NCBI GenBank assembly: GCA_035533095.1
Contig: DATLUM010000090.1
Location: forward strand, 1-57,885
Reading direction: 5' to 3'
Length of the DNA: 57,885 bases
Source: Acidimicrobiales bacterium
GTDB lineage: Bacteria > Actinomycetota > Acidimicrobiia > Acidimicrobiales > Palsa-688
The position numbers and the translations under genes were made by a program. The first letter of the stretch is position 1; the number at the start of each line of letters is the position of its first letter. The notes beneath the pieces were generated by a model, which saw only the letters and a list, made by a program, of their open reading frames with translations, had not been told where the DNA came from and made no database searches. Positions 7,693-41,788 of this stretch are shown piece by piece.

Positions 7693-9317
7693 GCCGGCGG
7701 GAGACCGCCGCTTGGTGGGAGACGGCGGTGATCTACCAGATCTACCCGCGGTCGTTCTGCGACGCATCGGGCGATGGGGTCGGCGACCTCGAAGGGATCC
7801 GCCGGCACCTCGACCACGTGGCTCGGCTCGGCACGGACGCCATCTGGCTCTCGCCGTTCTTCAAGTCCCCGATGGCCGACTTCGGCTACGACGTCTCGGA
7901 CTACTGCGACGTCGATCCGCTGTTCGGCGACATTGACACCTTCGACCGGCTGGTCCAGCAGGCCCACGAACGGGGGCTCAAGGTGATCGTGGACTTCGTT
8001 CCCAACCACACCAGCGATCGGCACCCCTGGTTCGAGGAGTCGAGGTCCTCGCGGGACAACCCGAAGCACGATTGGTACTACTGGCGGGACGGCAGGACCG
8101 ATGCCGAGGGCGGGTGGGGCCCGCCGGGGTCGGAGGGCAGGATGCCCAACAACTGGCGTGCCGCGTTCCCGGAAGTCGGTGGCAAGGAATTCCCGCCCGC
8201 CTGGACATGGGACCGGCGCAGGGACCAGTTCTACCTGCACCTCTTCTTGGAGGAGCAGCCGGACCTCAATTGGGGCAACCCGGGCGTGCGGGCGGCCATG
8301 GAAGACGTGCTCCGTTTCTGGATGGCCCGCGGCGTGGACGGGTTCCGCATCGACGTCATCCACGGCATCGGCAAGGACCCGGCCCTTCCTGACCTTCCAC
8401 CCAACCTGGCCCCTATCCCGGTGATCGCTCTCAACGACCACCCCTCCGCCCATCCCTACGTCTGCTCCTTGAGGTCGGTGGTCGATACTTGGGAGGAGCC
8501 GCCGCGCCGGATGCTCGTCGGCGAGGTGGTGCTGCCGACCGCCGGCCACACGCTCGCCTACTACGGGACCGCTGCTTTGCCGGAGCTCAACCTGGTGTTC
8601 AACTTCCACCCGCTGCGTGCGCCCTGGCAGGCGTCCGCCTGGCGCCGGCGGGTCCAAGAGGTCGAGGAGATGCTCGGCCCGGGTGGCTGGTGGCCGACCT
8701 GGGTGCTGTCGAACCACGACAATCCCCGCCACCGGACCCGCTACGGCAGCGAGGGGCGTGCCAGAGCAGCCGCGCTCTTGTTGCTGACCCTTCGCGGAAC
8801 GCCCTTCTTGTACGCGGGCGAAGAGCTCGGGCTCGAGGACGCCGAAGTACCGCCCCAACGGTCCGTCGACCCGGGTGGGCGTGACGGCTGCCGTGCACCG
8901 ATCCCGTGGGATGCGACTCCCGCCCACGGCTGGGCCGGCGGGCCGGACCCATGGCTGCCGTGGCCACCCGGTGCCGCCGCAGGAATGAATGTCGCCGACC
9001 AGATGGACGACCCTGACTCCGTGCTGCACCTCTACAGGCGCATCCTCGTGGCACGCAAGGCGTCCCCGGCGCTCCTTCACGGGACGTTTCGCTGGATCGA
9101 GTCCCCACAAGACACCCTCGCCTACACCCGGGAATCAGGCGGCGACACCCGCCTCGTGGTGATCAACTTCGGTGACCGAGAGGTGAAGGTCGGCCTCCCT
9201 GAGGGGTGCTGGAACCTACAGGTCCGTACCGGCCGCGGATCGGGTCCGGATGTCGCAGATCACCTCGTGCTTCGTGGCGAAGAAGCCGCTTTGCTGGTCG
9301 AGCGAACCGGCAGCTAG
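7689..9317 (+). CDS. GH13 alpha-glucosidase / oligo-1,6-glucosidase-type
   Basis: 542-aa cytoplasmic (beta/alpha)8 glycoside hydrolase releasing glucose from short alpha-glucans or sucrose-like oligosaccharides. The start is typical of the family ([15 protein letters not shown]). Conserved regions: DFVPNHTSD (region I), GFRIDVIHG with the nucleophile Asp about 222 (II), LVGEVVLP with acid/base Glu about 279 (III), and LSNHDNPRH with the transition-state Asp about 344 (IV). The TTG start overlaps the upstream stop. The stop overlaps the convergent rnd stop (shared CTAG). No sugar transporter or LacI regulator is nearby, so the physiological substrate is unclear. Confidence 0.93.
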
Positions 9318-10504
9318 GCCCGATCACTACCGGACGCGTCGCCCAACGGCCGGCCGGATCGCTCCTCGAGGACCAGGCGGCCGCCCCCGTCGAACGCCAA
9401 CGACGCCTCGCCCGCCATCAACGACCTCAGCCCTCGCGCCACCATCTCCCGCCTCCAACCTCTCGACAGCCGACCTTCAGGGTCGCCCCTGACCAACGCG
9501 GCGACGTCGCCTCGTGTGGCGACGAGCGTCGCGTCGATTCGCTGATCCCTTGCCACCTGCGCGATCCACGCCATGAGCAGCGAAACGGACGCTCGCACTT
9601 CCTTGGGCACGTCGTCAGCGGGCGGCAGCGCCAACCGGTCGGCGGGCAGCGACTTGCCGCGCTCGATCGCGTCCAATATCTCGGCCAGGACATCCTGGCG
9701 AAGGGTCCGCCCTTCCAGACCTCGCACCTCCGATAGTGCCTTGGCGTTGGCGGGCGGTCGGTGTGCGATCGCCGTGACGGCCAGGTCGGGCAGAACCGTT
9801 CGGACCGGGTGGTCGGTCGCCTGCGCTCGCCTCTCCCTCCACGCCGCCACCTCCTGCGCCACCCCGCGCGCTGACCCGCGCAACGACCTGGCATCGCGCA
9901 GCTTCCACCATGCCTTCGACGGATCGCCGGGGCCATGAGGCCTCGTTCTCAGCATCTCGCACTCCTCCTCCGCCCAAGCGAGCCGCCCGTCGCGGCGCAA
10001 CTCTCCGGAGATCGCGTCCGCCAGCTGGATGAGGTTCTCGACGTCAGCAGCCGCGTACGCGAGTTGCGAATCGGTAAGAGGTCGCCGGCGCCAGTCCGTC
10101 AACCGGTCGCCTTTCGGCACGTCGGCTCCGAGGAAGGTACGTGAGAGCGTGGCCAGGCTGGCCGATCCCTGTCCCGCGAAGCCGGCAGCCACCTGGGTGT
10201 CGAACAGGCGCGATGGCAGCCGGCCGCACGCCCGCTCGAGCACCTCGAGGTCCTGGTCGGCGGCGTGGGCGATCATGACGCCGGGGCCGGCCAGTACCTC
10301 GGCGAACGGGGCGATGTCCACTGCTTGAGGGTCGATCACGGTCACCCCTCCCGACGGCCCGTTCCAAGCGACCTGTACGAGAGCGAGTTGGGGCCAGTAG
10401 GTGCGCTCCCGGTGGAACTCGGTGTCGAGCGCATAGCGATCGGCGGTGCGCAGCCGAGAGACCGCCGACTCGAGATCCGTGGGGGTGGTGACGAGCTCGT
10501 GGAT
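9314..10504 (-). CDS. rnd: Ribonuclease D, apparent AUC start codon
   Basis: 3'-5' exoribonuclease of the DEDD group, about 396 aa, for tRNA and stable RNA 3'-end trimming. Exonuclease motif I (ALDTEFHRE, Asp27/Glu29), motif II (AHAADQDLEVL) and motif III (YAAADVENL) are present, followed by two HRDC-like regions. The first ATG/GTG/TTG in frame is GTG 10345, which would delete motif I. The frame is open upstream to a TGA beside the flavin reductase stop, and AGGAG (overlapping that gene's TAG) sits seven bases before an ATC codon at 10504-10502. I therefore place the start there, giving M-HELVTTPTDLESAV, the expected RNase D N-terminus. Confidence 0.85.
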   Translation of the reverse strand: MHELVTTPTDLESAVSRLRTADRYALDTEFHRERTYWPQLALVQVAWNGPSGGVTVIDPQAVDIAPFAEVLAGPGVMIAHAADQDLEVLERACGRLPSRLFDTQVAAGFAGQGSASLATLSRTFLGADVPKGDRLTDWRRRPLTDSQLAYAAADVENLIQLADAISGELRRDGRLAWAEEECEMLRTRPHGPGDPSKAWWKLRDARSLRGSARGVAQEVAAWRERRAQATDHPVRTVLPDLAVTAIAHRPPANAKALSEVRGLEGRTLRQDVLAEILDAIERGKSLPADRLALPPADDVPKEVRASVSLLMAWIAQVARDQRIDATLVATRGDVAALVRGDPEGRLSRGWRREMVARGLRSLMAGEASLAFDGGGRLVLEERSGRPLGDASGSDRA

Positions 10505-10514
10505 AGCGGAACTC

Positions 10515-11057
10515 CTAGCCGCCGTAGCTCATCCGGGTGTCCTCCATGCGGAGGATCTCGGTGCCGTCGCCGACGTCGCCACCGCAGTCGACTACCTCGC
10601 CGGCGAAGACCGTGTGACTCGTGAAGTCGAGCGTGCTCCTCACTTCGCAGTCGAGCCAGGCCGCCGCTTGCTCGAGGATGGGGGCACCGGTGGAGGCGGC
10701 GCGCACAGCGAACCCGGCAAGGTTGGCGGCATCGCCGCCGTCGTCGAGGGGCTTCACGAACTTGCGGACGATGGCACGGTCGGCGCGGCCGATGATGTTG
10801 AGGGAAAAGACGCCGCCGTCGCGCACGAGAGCGTGAGTCACGGCCTCATGCTCGATGCTCACAGCGACGATCTTCGGGTCGGTCGCGACTTGCATCCCCC
10901 AGTTCAGTGTCATCAGGTTGCGGCGCCCGGCATGGACGCTTCCCAGCACGAACAGCCCGCTCGGCATCGACCACAGAACCCGCCTGCGAACCCGGTCGTA
11001 CTCCTCGGGGTCGACGCCTCGGGGAAAGGGCCCGACGAGAGCGTGCTCATTTGCCAC
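10515..11057 (-). CDS. Flavin reductase-like FMN-binding protein
   Basis: 180-aa protein of the flavin reductase (split-barrel, flavoredoxin) family, probably binding FMN and reducing free flavin or acting as the reductase of a two-component monooxygenase. Typical features are the N-terminal VLWSMPSGLFVLGS strand, NLMTLNWGMQVATDPK, SIEHEAVTHALVRDGGVFSLN, and a C-terminal SHTVFAGEVVDC. The GTG start follows a TAGTCT -10 box by six bases. Its TAG stop contributes to the Shine-Dalgarno of rnd, so rnd is likely coupled to it. No monooxygenase partner is adjacent. Confidence 0.85.
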   Translation of the reverse strand: MANEHALVGPFPRGVDPEEYDRVRRRVLWSMPSGLFVLGSVHAGRRNLMTLNWGMQVATDPKIVAVSIEHEAVTHALVRDGGVFSLNIIGRADRAIVRKFVKPLDDGGDAANLAGFAVRAASTGAPILEQAAAWLDCEVRSTLDFTSHTVFAGEVVDCGGDVGDGTEILRMEDTRMSYGG

Positions 11058-39112: not shown

Positions 39113-41143
39113 CTACCACAGCCCCCGGAGCGCGTCGTCGACGGCGGACGGCAGCGCCGCCGAGAGCGCCGGCAGAGCGACGTCGTCGCGCCGGCCGCGC
39201 ACGGCGCGGTGATCCAGCAGATCCTCTACCGACGGCGGCAGGAATCGGGTCCGCTGCCCGTAGCTGTGCGCGTCACCCCGCCCGAACGGCCCACCGTGGT
39301 GGTAGCGCAACGGGGCGTAGATGTGGAGGTGCTCGCAGGCGCGGGTCAGCGCGACGTAGAAGAGCCGGCGTTCCTCCTCTATCTCCTCCCTCGACCCGGT
39401 CGACATGTCCGAGGGGAACATCCCGTCGGCTGCGTGGATCAGGTGCACAACCCGCCACTCCCCGCCTTTCGCGGAGTGCACCGTCGACAGGATGACGTAG
39501 TCGTCATCCAGCAAGGGGGGTCCGGCAAGATCGGCGGTCGATGCCGGCGGGTCGAGCGTCAGCTCGGCGACCATCCGGGACCGGTCCTCGAACCCGCCGG
39601 CGACCCGCGCCAGCGCCTCGAGATCCCGCAGCCGCACATCAGCGTTCTCGTAGCGCCGGCGGATCATGGGCTCGAGCCCCGCCGCCAGCCTCTCCACCTG
39701 CGCCCCGGCCGCCAAAGCGGAAGTCACGCAGTCACGCAGCGCTGCCGCCAGCCTCTCCGCGTCGTTCGCGGCGCGCGCCGGCACCAGCCCCGCCGCGCCG
39801 TCGACAAAACGACCCAGCCCCTCCCCCTCCCCCACTCCCATCGCTTCCATCGCGCGGCGCGCGCCCGCCGGGCCGACACCGTCGAGCAGTTGCAGCAGCC
39901 GGTACCACGCCAGCTCGTCGCGGGGGTTGTCGAGCACGCGTAGCGCTGCGATCAGGTCCCGCACGTGGGCGGCTTCTAGGAATCGCAACCCGCCGTACTT
40001 GACGAACGGGATGTTCCGCCGGCGAAGCTCGACTTCCAACAGGTCGCTGTGGTGCGCAGTGCGGAACAGGACGGCCTGGTCGCGCAGCGCCACCCCGGCC
40101 TCGTGGTGTTCGAGGATCACGTCCGCTACAGCGTCCGCCTGCGACGCCTCGTCCGGGCATGTGGCGAGCACCGGCCGCAGGCCGCCGACCCGCTCTGTCC
40201 ATAGATGTTTGGCGTATCCCTCGGTCGCCTGCGCCAGCACGGCGTTCGCGAGGTCGAGGATCGGCTGCGTCGAGCGGTAGTTGCGCTCCAGTTTCACGAC
40301 GGTCGCGCCAGGAAAGCGGTCCGGGAAATCGAGCATGTTGCGGACGGTGGCCGCGCGGAACGCGTAGATCGACTGGGCGTCGTCGCCGACCGCCGTCAAC
40401 GGCCGTGCGCCGGCGCGCAGCGCTGCGACGATGTCGGCCTGCAACACGTTGGTGTCCTGGTACTCGTCGACGAGGATGTGGTCGTACGCGGCGGCGAGCA
40501 CGGGCCCCACCTGTGGGTCGGTCGCGGCCGCGCGCCAGTACAGGAGCATGTCGTCGAAATCGAGGACGCCCTGCGCGCGCTTGCGTTCGGTATAGAGGGA
40601 AAAGACCTGTCCGATCGCGGCTTCGTGCTCCTGTACCCAGGGAAAGTGTCTGCGCAGGACGGGCCGGAGCGGCTCCTGCGCGTTGACCACCCGCGAATAG
40701 ACGGCGACCAGCGTGTCCTTGCGGGGAAAACGACGCCGCTCCCCCTCCCCGACCTCCTGGCGCACCAGGTGCATCAGGTCGGCTGCGTCGCCCTGGTCCA
40801 TCACGCTGAAGCCCGCACCGAGGCCGAGCGCTTCGCCGTGCTGGCGCAGCAACCGGTGCGCCACGGAATGGAACGTCCCGGCGTGCACGCGGCGTGCAAC
40901 CTCCGGCCCGACCAGCGGGGCGAGCCGGCGGATCATCTCGTCCGCGGCCCGGCGGCTGAACGTCACCAGCAGCAGGCGTTCGGGAGCGGTCCCCCCCGAG
41001 ATGAGCCGGGCGAGGCGCGCCACGAGCGTCCTGGTCTTGCCCGTGCCGGCCCCCGCGACGATCAGGAGCGGGCCCCCGTCGTGCTCGACGGCCTCGCGCT
41101 GGGACTCGTCAAGGCCGGCCGACCACCGGGGCTCGTCGTGCAT
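39113..41143 (-). CDS. UvrD/PcrA-type superfamily 1 DNA helicase
   Basis: 676-aa 3'-5' helicase for repair or recombination. Motifs: Q-motif LDESQREAVEH, Walker A AGAGTGKTRT, TFSRRAADEM (Ia), VLDFDDMLLY, Walker B VDEYQDTN, GDDAQSIYAFRAA (III), RNYRSTQPIL (IV), STVHSAKGGEWRVVHL (V), and RRLFYVALTRACEHL (VI). The length is a little short of PcrA and the C-terminal DNA/RNAP-binding Tudor tail is absent, closer to UvrD2- or UvrD1-truncated types. The ATG is six bases after a TATTCT box. Confidence 0.93.
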   Translation of the reverse strand: MHDEPRWSAGLDESQREAVEHDGGPLLIVAGAGTGKTRTLVARLARLISGGTAPERLLLVTFSRRAADEMIRRLAPLVGPEVARRVHAGTFHSVAHRLLRQHGEALGLGAGFSVMDQGDAADLMHLVRQEVGEGERRRFPRKDTLVAVYSRVVNAQEPLRPVLRRHFPWVQEHEAAIGQVFSLYTERKRAQGVLDFDDMLLYWRAAATDPQVGPVLAAAYDHILVDEYQDTNVLQADIVAALRAGARPLTAVGDDAQSIYAFRAATVRNMLDFPDRFPGATVVKLERNYRSTQPILDLANAVLAQATEGYAKHLWTERVGGLRPVLATCPDEASQADAVADVILEHHEAGVALRDQAVLFRTAHHSDLLEVELRRRNIPFVKYGGLRFLEAAHVRDLIAALRVLDNPRDELAWYRLLQLLDGVGPAGARRAMEAMGVGEGEGLGRFVDGAAGLVPARAANDAERLAAALRDCVTSALAAGAQVERLAAGLEPMIRRRYENADVRLRDLEALARVAGGFEDRSRMVAELTLDPPASTADLAGPPLLDDDYVILSTVHSAKGGEWRVVHLIHAADGMFPSDMSTGSREEIEEERRLFYVALTRACEHLHIYAPLRYHHGGPFGRGDAHSYGQRTRFLPPSVEDLLDHRAVRGRRDDVALPALSAALPSAVDDALRGLW

Positions 41144-41149
41144 CCCACG

Positions 41150-41155
41150 AGAATA
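41150..41155 (-). promoter_or_regulatory. -10 box (TATTCT) of leaderless helicase gene
   Basis: TATTCT on the minus strand ends six bases before the ATG at 41143. It sits back-to-back with the maf promoter about 30 bases away. Confidence 0.6.
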
Positions 41156-41182
41156 CGCGCACTTCGAACACGTGTTCGGGAA

Positions 41183-41188
41183 TAGGCT
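41183..41188 (+). promoter_or_regulatory. -10 box (TAGGCT) of leaderless maf
   Basis: TAGGCT ends six bases before the GTG at 41195, with no Shine-Dalgarno. Confidence 0.6.
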
Positions 41189-41194
41189 GTTCGG

Positions 41195-41788
41195 GTGGGA
41201 CGCCGGCTGATCCTCGCCTCCGCCTCGCCGTCTCGGCTGCGCCTCCTCGAAGGCTCCGGCCTCCGCCCGGAGGTGATCGTCAGCCACGTATCCGAGGACG
41301 GAGTCGACCACCTCACCCCAGCCGAGGCCACCCTCGTCCTGGCGAGGCGGAAGGCCGAGTCTGTCGCAGAGAAGGTCGAGGGACCCGCGCTGGTGGTCGG
41401 CTGCGACTCGATGCTCGAGCTCGGGGACGCCACGTTCGGCAAGCCGTCGACACCCCAGGAGGCCCGCCGGCGGTGGCAGCAGATGCGCAACAGGGCCGGG
41501 ATGCTCCACACGGGTCACTGCGTCATCGACACGGACTCCGGCGCTCAGGCAGCGCACACCGACTCCGCGATCGTGCGCTTCGGCGACCCGACCGACGCCG
41601 AGATAGACGCGTACGTCGCGACGGGCGAGCCGCTGCGGGTCGCCGGCGCCTTCACCCTGGAGGGGATGTCCGCCCCGTGGATCGATTCGATCGACGGCAA
41701 CTACGGCACCATCACCGGGATCTCCATCCCCCTCCTGCGCCGGCTGCTCGCCGAGCTACGGGTGGAGATCGTCGACCTGTGGTCCTGA
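41195..41788 (+). CDS. maf: Maf family nucleotide pyrophosphatase
   Basis: 197-aa house-cleaning pyrophosphatase hydrolysing non-canonical or excess NTPs. ILASASPSRLRLLEGSGL is the N-terminal signature; VVGCDSMLELGDATFGKP carries the catalytic Asp and following Lys/Pro, and VAGAFTLEGMSAPWIDSIDGNYGTITGISIPLL is the conserved end. The stop lies 10 bases into the dus gene. Maf with a tRNA-modifying enzyme is a common housekeeping pair. Confidence 0.92.
   Translation: MGRRLILASASPSRLRLLEGSGLRPEVIVSHVSEDGVDHLTPAEATLVLARRKAESVAEKVEGPALVVGCDSMLELGDATFGKPSTPQEARRRWQQMRNRAGMLHTGHCVIDTDSGAQAAHTDSAIVRFGDPTDAEIDAYVATGEPLRVAGAFTLEGMSAPWIDSIDGNYGTITGISIPLLRRLLAELRVEIVDLWS

Follow-up and report, generated by a model that had tools for sequence, protein, structure and literature searches.

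Few bacterial genes that start with AUU, AUC or AUA (AUH) have been characterised. The product of one of them, pcnB, adds 3' nucleotides where RNase D trims them, and pcnB is dose-sensitive. AUU starts are reported for both infC and pcnB of E. coli (PMC4245954); infC is described as starting with ATT in E. coli but with ATC in Streptomyces, and Streptomyces sigR as having a GTC start that is repressed by IF3 (PMC5472188). In a reconstituted system, IF3 accepted no pairs other than Watson-Crick ones at the first two codon positions and disfavoured weak pairs at position 3 (PMC10158994). An AUC codon paired with a CAU anticodon is mismatched at position 3 only. The rnd gene of E. coli has a TTG start in its annotated record.

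We analyzed a 57,885-nucleotide stretch of an Acidimicrobiales genome (hereafter the window) that carries an rnd-like gene on its minus strand. The features of the locus are listed in Table 1. We consider it very probable that this gene is translated from the AUC codon at 10504-10502, yielding a full-length RNase D-family exonuclease. The resemblance to infC lies in an AUH codon at the start position behind a Shine-Dalgarno (SD) sequence; however, the protein encoded by infC regulates its own gene, whereas the gene of the window encodes an RNase D, which is not known to have a role in start-codon selection. E. coli rnd belongs to the same enzyme family and also has a weak start, whereas the ATC of the window lies outside the standard codons. 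E. coli pcnB likewise places an RNA 3'-end enzyme, poly(A) polymerase I, behind an AUU start (PMC4245954), although that protein is unrelated, comes from another phylum and catalyses the opposite reaction. Streptomyces sigR is an Actinomycetota gene whose non-canonical start was missed by annotation and is lowered by IF3 (PMC5472188); it differs in having GTC rather than AUH, in encoding a sigma factor and in being experimentally proven, whereas the AUC start of rnd in the window is a prediction from sequence.

Table 1. Coordinates of the features at the rnd-like locus of the window
Feature	Position	Strand	Remarks
Flavin reductase-like gene, GTG start, possibly co-transcribed	10515..11057	-	Same neighbour in relatives; name taken from the preliminary description
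AGGAG, Shine-Dalgarno-like, 7-nt spacer	10512..10516	-	Overlaps the stop of the upstream gene
ATC, proposed initiation codon	10502..10504	-	AUH behind AGGAG core; homologous ATT/ATC/ATA in relatives
rnd-like CDS, proposed extent from AUC to TAG stop, 396 residues	9314..10504	-	RNase D family, exonuclease and HRDC
Exonuclease motif I ALDTEFHRE, with D35 and E37 of the open frame	10406..10432	-	D35-E41 invariant, 14 sequences
GTG, first standard start; 343-residue product without motif I	10343..10345	-	Codon 62 of the open frame

The rnd frame comprises 404 codons; it opens at 10528, directly behind a TGA, and its stop lies at 9314. The ATC is codon 9 of this frame and the first ATG, GTG or TTG is the GTG at 10345 (codon 62), 53 codons farther on; motif I, at residues 33-41, lies upstream of it, and the three standard codons are absent between the upstream stop and motif I. 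The AGGAG shares bases with the TAG of the flavin reductase gene (10517-10515) and is followed by the 7-nt spacer and the ATC. An earlier, preliminary description had stated that a start at GTG 10345 removes motif I, that the frame remains open for 53 codons upstream without a standard codon, and that the AGGAG formed with the flavin reductase TAG lies seven bases from the ATC. These coordinates and counts proved right. In a codon-usage scan trained on the long ORFs of the genome, the maximal coding segment of rnd began exactly at 10504, and the coding potential, the AlphaFold2 model and the similarity to relatives each started at the ATC or at most two residues from it. The energy of the duplex with the anti-SD was -6.8 for the ATC, -6.2 for a CTG at 10453 and -4.5 for an ACG at 10525-10523; with duplex energies so nearly equal, the ATC and the CTG were told apart solely by the AGGAG core. 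In the predicted RNA fold, computed for this one sequence with no shuffled controls, the AGGAG and the ATC were each partly base-paired. The N-terminal peptide predicted for the AUC start is (M)HELVTTPTDLESAVSR or HELVTTPTDLESAVSR.

The preliminary description had also recognized the encoded N-terminus as that of RNase D, and the domain searches agreed. PF01612, the DEDD 3'-5' exonuclease domain that includes motif I, matched residues 12-177 (105.2 bits), and PF00570 (HRDC) matched residues 222-288 (40.9 bits), after the exonuclease domain. Residues 13-370 matched positions 2-360 of the 363 in TIGR01388 with 281.6 bits; since this is below the equivalog cut-off of 298.95, we name the protein 'RNase D family' rather than a strict equivalog. 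The best PDB match was E. coli RNase D (1yt3), whose residue 3 aligned with residue 10 of the query; the ATC (residue 9) therefore falls at residue 2 of the E. coli enzyme. D35 and E37 aligned with the catalytic residues D28 and E30 of E. coli RNase D, and D35, T36, E37, F38, H39, R40 and E41 were invariant in an alignment of the window with 13 relatives (14 sequences). An AlphaFold2 model built from 14 sequences (model A1, mean pLDDT 83.8) had pLDDT below 50 at residues 1-7, at residues 41-44 and at the C-terminus, and predicted a strand at 10-13, a helix at 16-26 and a strand at 31-39 that carries D35 and E37.

We searched 32 genomes of the window's family and found an rnd match in 28 of them. 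The closest relative (G014) has ATT at the homologous codon, behind AGGAG with a spacing of 8; G001 (Acidimicrobiaceae bacterium palsa_688; loci L006/L124) has ATC behind AAGGAGG with a spacing of 5, and G029 (L015/L114) has ATA behind AGGAGG with a spacing of 7. These three represent genera other than that of the window and were separately assembled, and all three lack an ATG, GTG or TTG 20 or more codons upstream of motif I; in G001 a GTG that has no SD occurs 12 codons upstream of the motif. The AUC start put forward in the preliminary description gains support from these three codons, each with an SD 5-8 nt upstream. Since a canonical start is absent, the SD spacing is suitable and homologous AUH codons occur in relatives, we regard rnd as a new candidate for an AUH-start gene. 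Relatives with ATG or GTG at this position had been named beforehand as evidence against the AUC, and here the outcome was divided: G007 has a GTG at -27, one codon away from the AUH position and behind AAGGAGG, and G006, G020 and G027, of one genus, have a GTG at -31, whereas G014, G001 and G029 have AUH. Judging by these codons, the AUH start of rnd is neither universal nor obligatory in the family, and GTG states occur in sister lineages, from which the window gains no start. In G009 an ATC at -25 with a weaker SD (GGAG, spacing 9) may be the start; two GTGs and a CTGA lie farther upstream.

We computed N-terminal identity and dN/dS against four of the relatives. Over the 8 codons upstream of the ATC, identity was 0/8 with G014, 12% with G007 and 0% with both G001 and G009; over the 25 codons after it, identity was 56% with G014, 44% with G007, 44% with G001 and 40% with G009. 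The dN/dS of the latter 25 codons was 0.36 (G014), 0.64 (G007) and 1.07 (G009), and saturated for G001; constraint on the N-terminus is therefore only moderate. The motif I block had 91% identity and a dN/dS of 0.04 against G014, and a dN/dS of 0.14 against G007. In a protein tree of 27 proteins out of 32 rows (five were lost in the deduplicated set), the AUH genes sat in a group of 8 rows (support 90/83, not starred), three of which lack AUH, and the window paired with G014 (support 100/98). The ATC label required 2 changes on the tree, a value matched by 500 of 500 shuffles. A single ancestral gain of the AUH start with later losses and multiple gains would both fit this pattern.

A wider survey located 183 rnd loci, 129 of them distinct, with motif I positions taken from alignments; the loci were the top-scoring ones in this order and in a named collection rather than a random sample. 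Of the 129, seven lacked a canonical codon 20 or more codons upstream of motif I, namely the window, G014, G001, G029, L046, L187 and L089; Acidiferrimicrobium (L113), by contrast, has canonical GTG candidates. We looked 20-45 codons upstream of motif I for an AUH codon preceded at 4-10 nt by an SD core of at least 5 nt, and 4 of these 7 loci had one vs 2 of the 122 others (Fisher p 4.6e-5, a post hoc value for rows related by descent and uncorrected for it). As a crude control, we looked in the flavin reductase-like gene for a standard codon no later than its N-terminal motif; 30 of 31 readable loci had one, and the lone exception runs off its contig. The survey also brought up other arrangements at rnd. 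In five loci outside the window's family (L046, L144, L187, L063 and L068), rnd lies downstream of a gene that is rhodanese-like by its motif; the two genes meet in frame at a CTGA, and from this junction to 20 codons before motif I there are no standard codons. This suggests a CUG restart of rnd in those loci; GC-rich DNA can yield CTGA by chance. L169 and L104 have GTAG/GTAA in place of the CTGA junction. For rnd of L118/L021 (G012), the homologous start position, 25 codons before motif I, holds a GTA behind GGAG (spacing 8), while a GTG lies 57 codons upstream of the motif.

We also scored infC in the same family, in L214 (G000:C136:30941-31147, plus strand, with flanks) and in L188-L213; a 28th locus, L215, was unreadable at a contig end. 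The start position of infC was ATA in 27 of the 28 loci, including the window's genome, and an AGGAG core preceded the scored ATA in 24 of the 27. Standard codons occurred farther upstream in frame in 5 of the 27 and 6-8 codons downstream in 6, one locus having both. In 17 of the 27, the window's genome among them, there was no standard codon upstream or within 14 codons after the ATA. An Rfam search of the infC locus returned no match at the gathering cut-offs. With AUA so widespread at infC, initiation at AUH codons is probably a normal part of the biology of this family. The window's genome has a tRNA-Met with anticodon CAU and an anticodon stem of the initiator type; no special tRNA is therefore needed.

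To place rnd within its genome, we ranked ORFs by how much of their coding signal preceded the first standard start and would thus be lost. The rnd gene ranked first in 285,100 bases (161 non-overlapping coding ORFs) and sixth in a larger scan of 685,100 bases (523 ORFs). For one of the five ORFs above it, the Pfam domain lies well past the first standard codon; three others match no Pfam family and are possibly antisense shadows, and one, which was not among the Pfam-tested ORFs, overlaps a Maf-like gene on the opposite strand. Of the 523 ORFs, 22 (rnd included) were flagged as losing 12 or more codons and 2 or more score units upstream of the first standard codon. A Pfam check of ten ORFs (nine of the 22 and one just under the threshold) gave four without a family, five with the domain after the first standard codon and one with a domain start before it. 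The scan is noisy, because many flagged ORFs resemble antisense shadows. A genome-wide habit as the sole cause was rejected; among the ten ORFs checked with Pfam, only an acyltransferase was truncated into its domain. This acyltransferase-3 gene (L230:17957-19117, minus strand; orthologue L259) has no standard start before its domain and has an ATA behind GGAG (spacing 7) that overlaps the stop of a tiny ORF (ATAA); among the 6 of 10 loci that were readable, the G001 orthologue has ATC behind AGGGAGG and G014 has GTG. Elsewhere in the window (39119-41755, minus strand), the open frame of a UvrD/PcrA-like helicase extends well upstream of where the protein probably starts and lies opposite a Maf-like gene on the other strand, both genes being named by their motifs; this upstream frame is a shadow and not a missing start.

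The strongest rival to the AUC is a start at another near-cognate codon, above all the CUG at 10453-10451 (residue 26), which is in frame, lies 9 codons before the motif I Asp, retains motif I, is also CTG in G014 and nearly equals the ATC in duplex energy. Nevertheless, neither this codon nor the ACG at 10525-10523 (residue 2) is preceded by an AGGAG-type core. The CTG position reads CTC in G001 and G007, CTA in G029 and GCG in G009, so that G014 alone of the five relatives shares the codon, and a start there would cost the predicted fold its first strand and first helix. The ACG has the weaker duplex and falls within the stretch that is unconserved with G014. We consider both codons unlikely starts. 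A genuine start at GTG 10345, with the upstream frame a relic and the product truncated, inactive or re-purposed, is what a gene caller restricted to ATG, GTG and TTG would report. Such a start would remove strands 1-3 (residues 10-13, 31-39 and 47-55 of the model), helix 1 (residues 16-26) and the invariant D and E of motif I, a block that the dN/dS values place under strong purifying selection. We rejected a pseudogene or truncated protein on the invariant motif I and the fold, and we give this reading very little credence.

The adjacency of the two genes, with the TAG 10 nt from the ATC, could be taken to mean that RNase D is made as a fusion from the flavin reductase by frameshifting or read-through. 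However, frame and distance vary among relatives: the gap from the flavin reductase stop to the AUH is 24 nt in G014 (same frame, TGA), about 130 nt in G001 and 102 nt in G029, and the residues between the genes are unconserved with G014, G001 and G009. The fusion was rejected on this inconsistency of frame and gap and appears highly improbable. Because the gap varies in this way, coupling of rnd to the flavin reductase gene, suggested along with a limited RNase D dose in the preliminary description and possible in the window with its 10-nt gap, does not appear to be a conserved feature. An assembly or base-call error hiding a true ATG is the least probable reading of all. The window is one of the 142 contigs of an assembly with 96.79% completeness, and one base change gives ATG, but three relatives from other genera, each assembled separately, have ATT, ATC and ATA at the homologous codon, which makes the base-call error raised in the preliminary description very unlikely.

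For an AUC start, the AGGAG would position the 30S subunit at 10504-10502, and the ordinary initiator tRNA (anticodon CAU) would read the AUC mispaired at the third codon position. IF3 would discriminate against AUC-type codons, so that initiation would be weak, lower IF3 activity would allow more initiation on rnd, and weak initiation would keep RNase D scarce. We infer use of the AUC in vivo and selection for weak initiation and, by analogy with infC, pcnB and Streptomyces sigR, a weak, IF3-sensitive translation of rnd and a small RNase D dose. It is possible, if rather doubtful, that rnd (AUC, AUU or AUA) and infC (AUA), perhaps with the acyltransferase (AUA or AUC), form a small IF3-governed set in which the third base shifts between C, U and A but avoids G, and in which RNase D output tracks IF3 and ribosome status; the avoidance of G in the Acidimicrobiaceae-like clade is seen in four to five lineages only, below statistical proof. 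If true, an IF3-governed rnd would parallel the weak starts of other RNA 3'-end enzymes (pcnB with AUU and E. coli rnd with UUG).

A non-canonical start of rnd was not found among the matches listed in a search of titles and abstract openings of the open literature, in which most subscription journals are not covered. The rnd gene of the window is a likely addition to the short list of bacterial genes with AUC, AUU or AUA starts. In several genera, a gene caller limited to ATG, GTG and TTG would leave a housekeeping RNase without its catalytic motif, and a conserved AUH start in an enzyme of RNA processing would point to control by IF3-sensitive initiation beyond infC.
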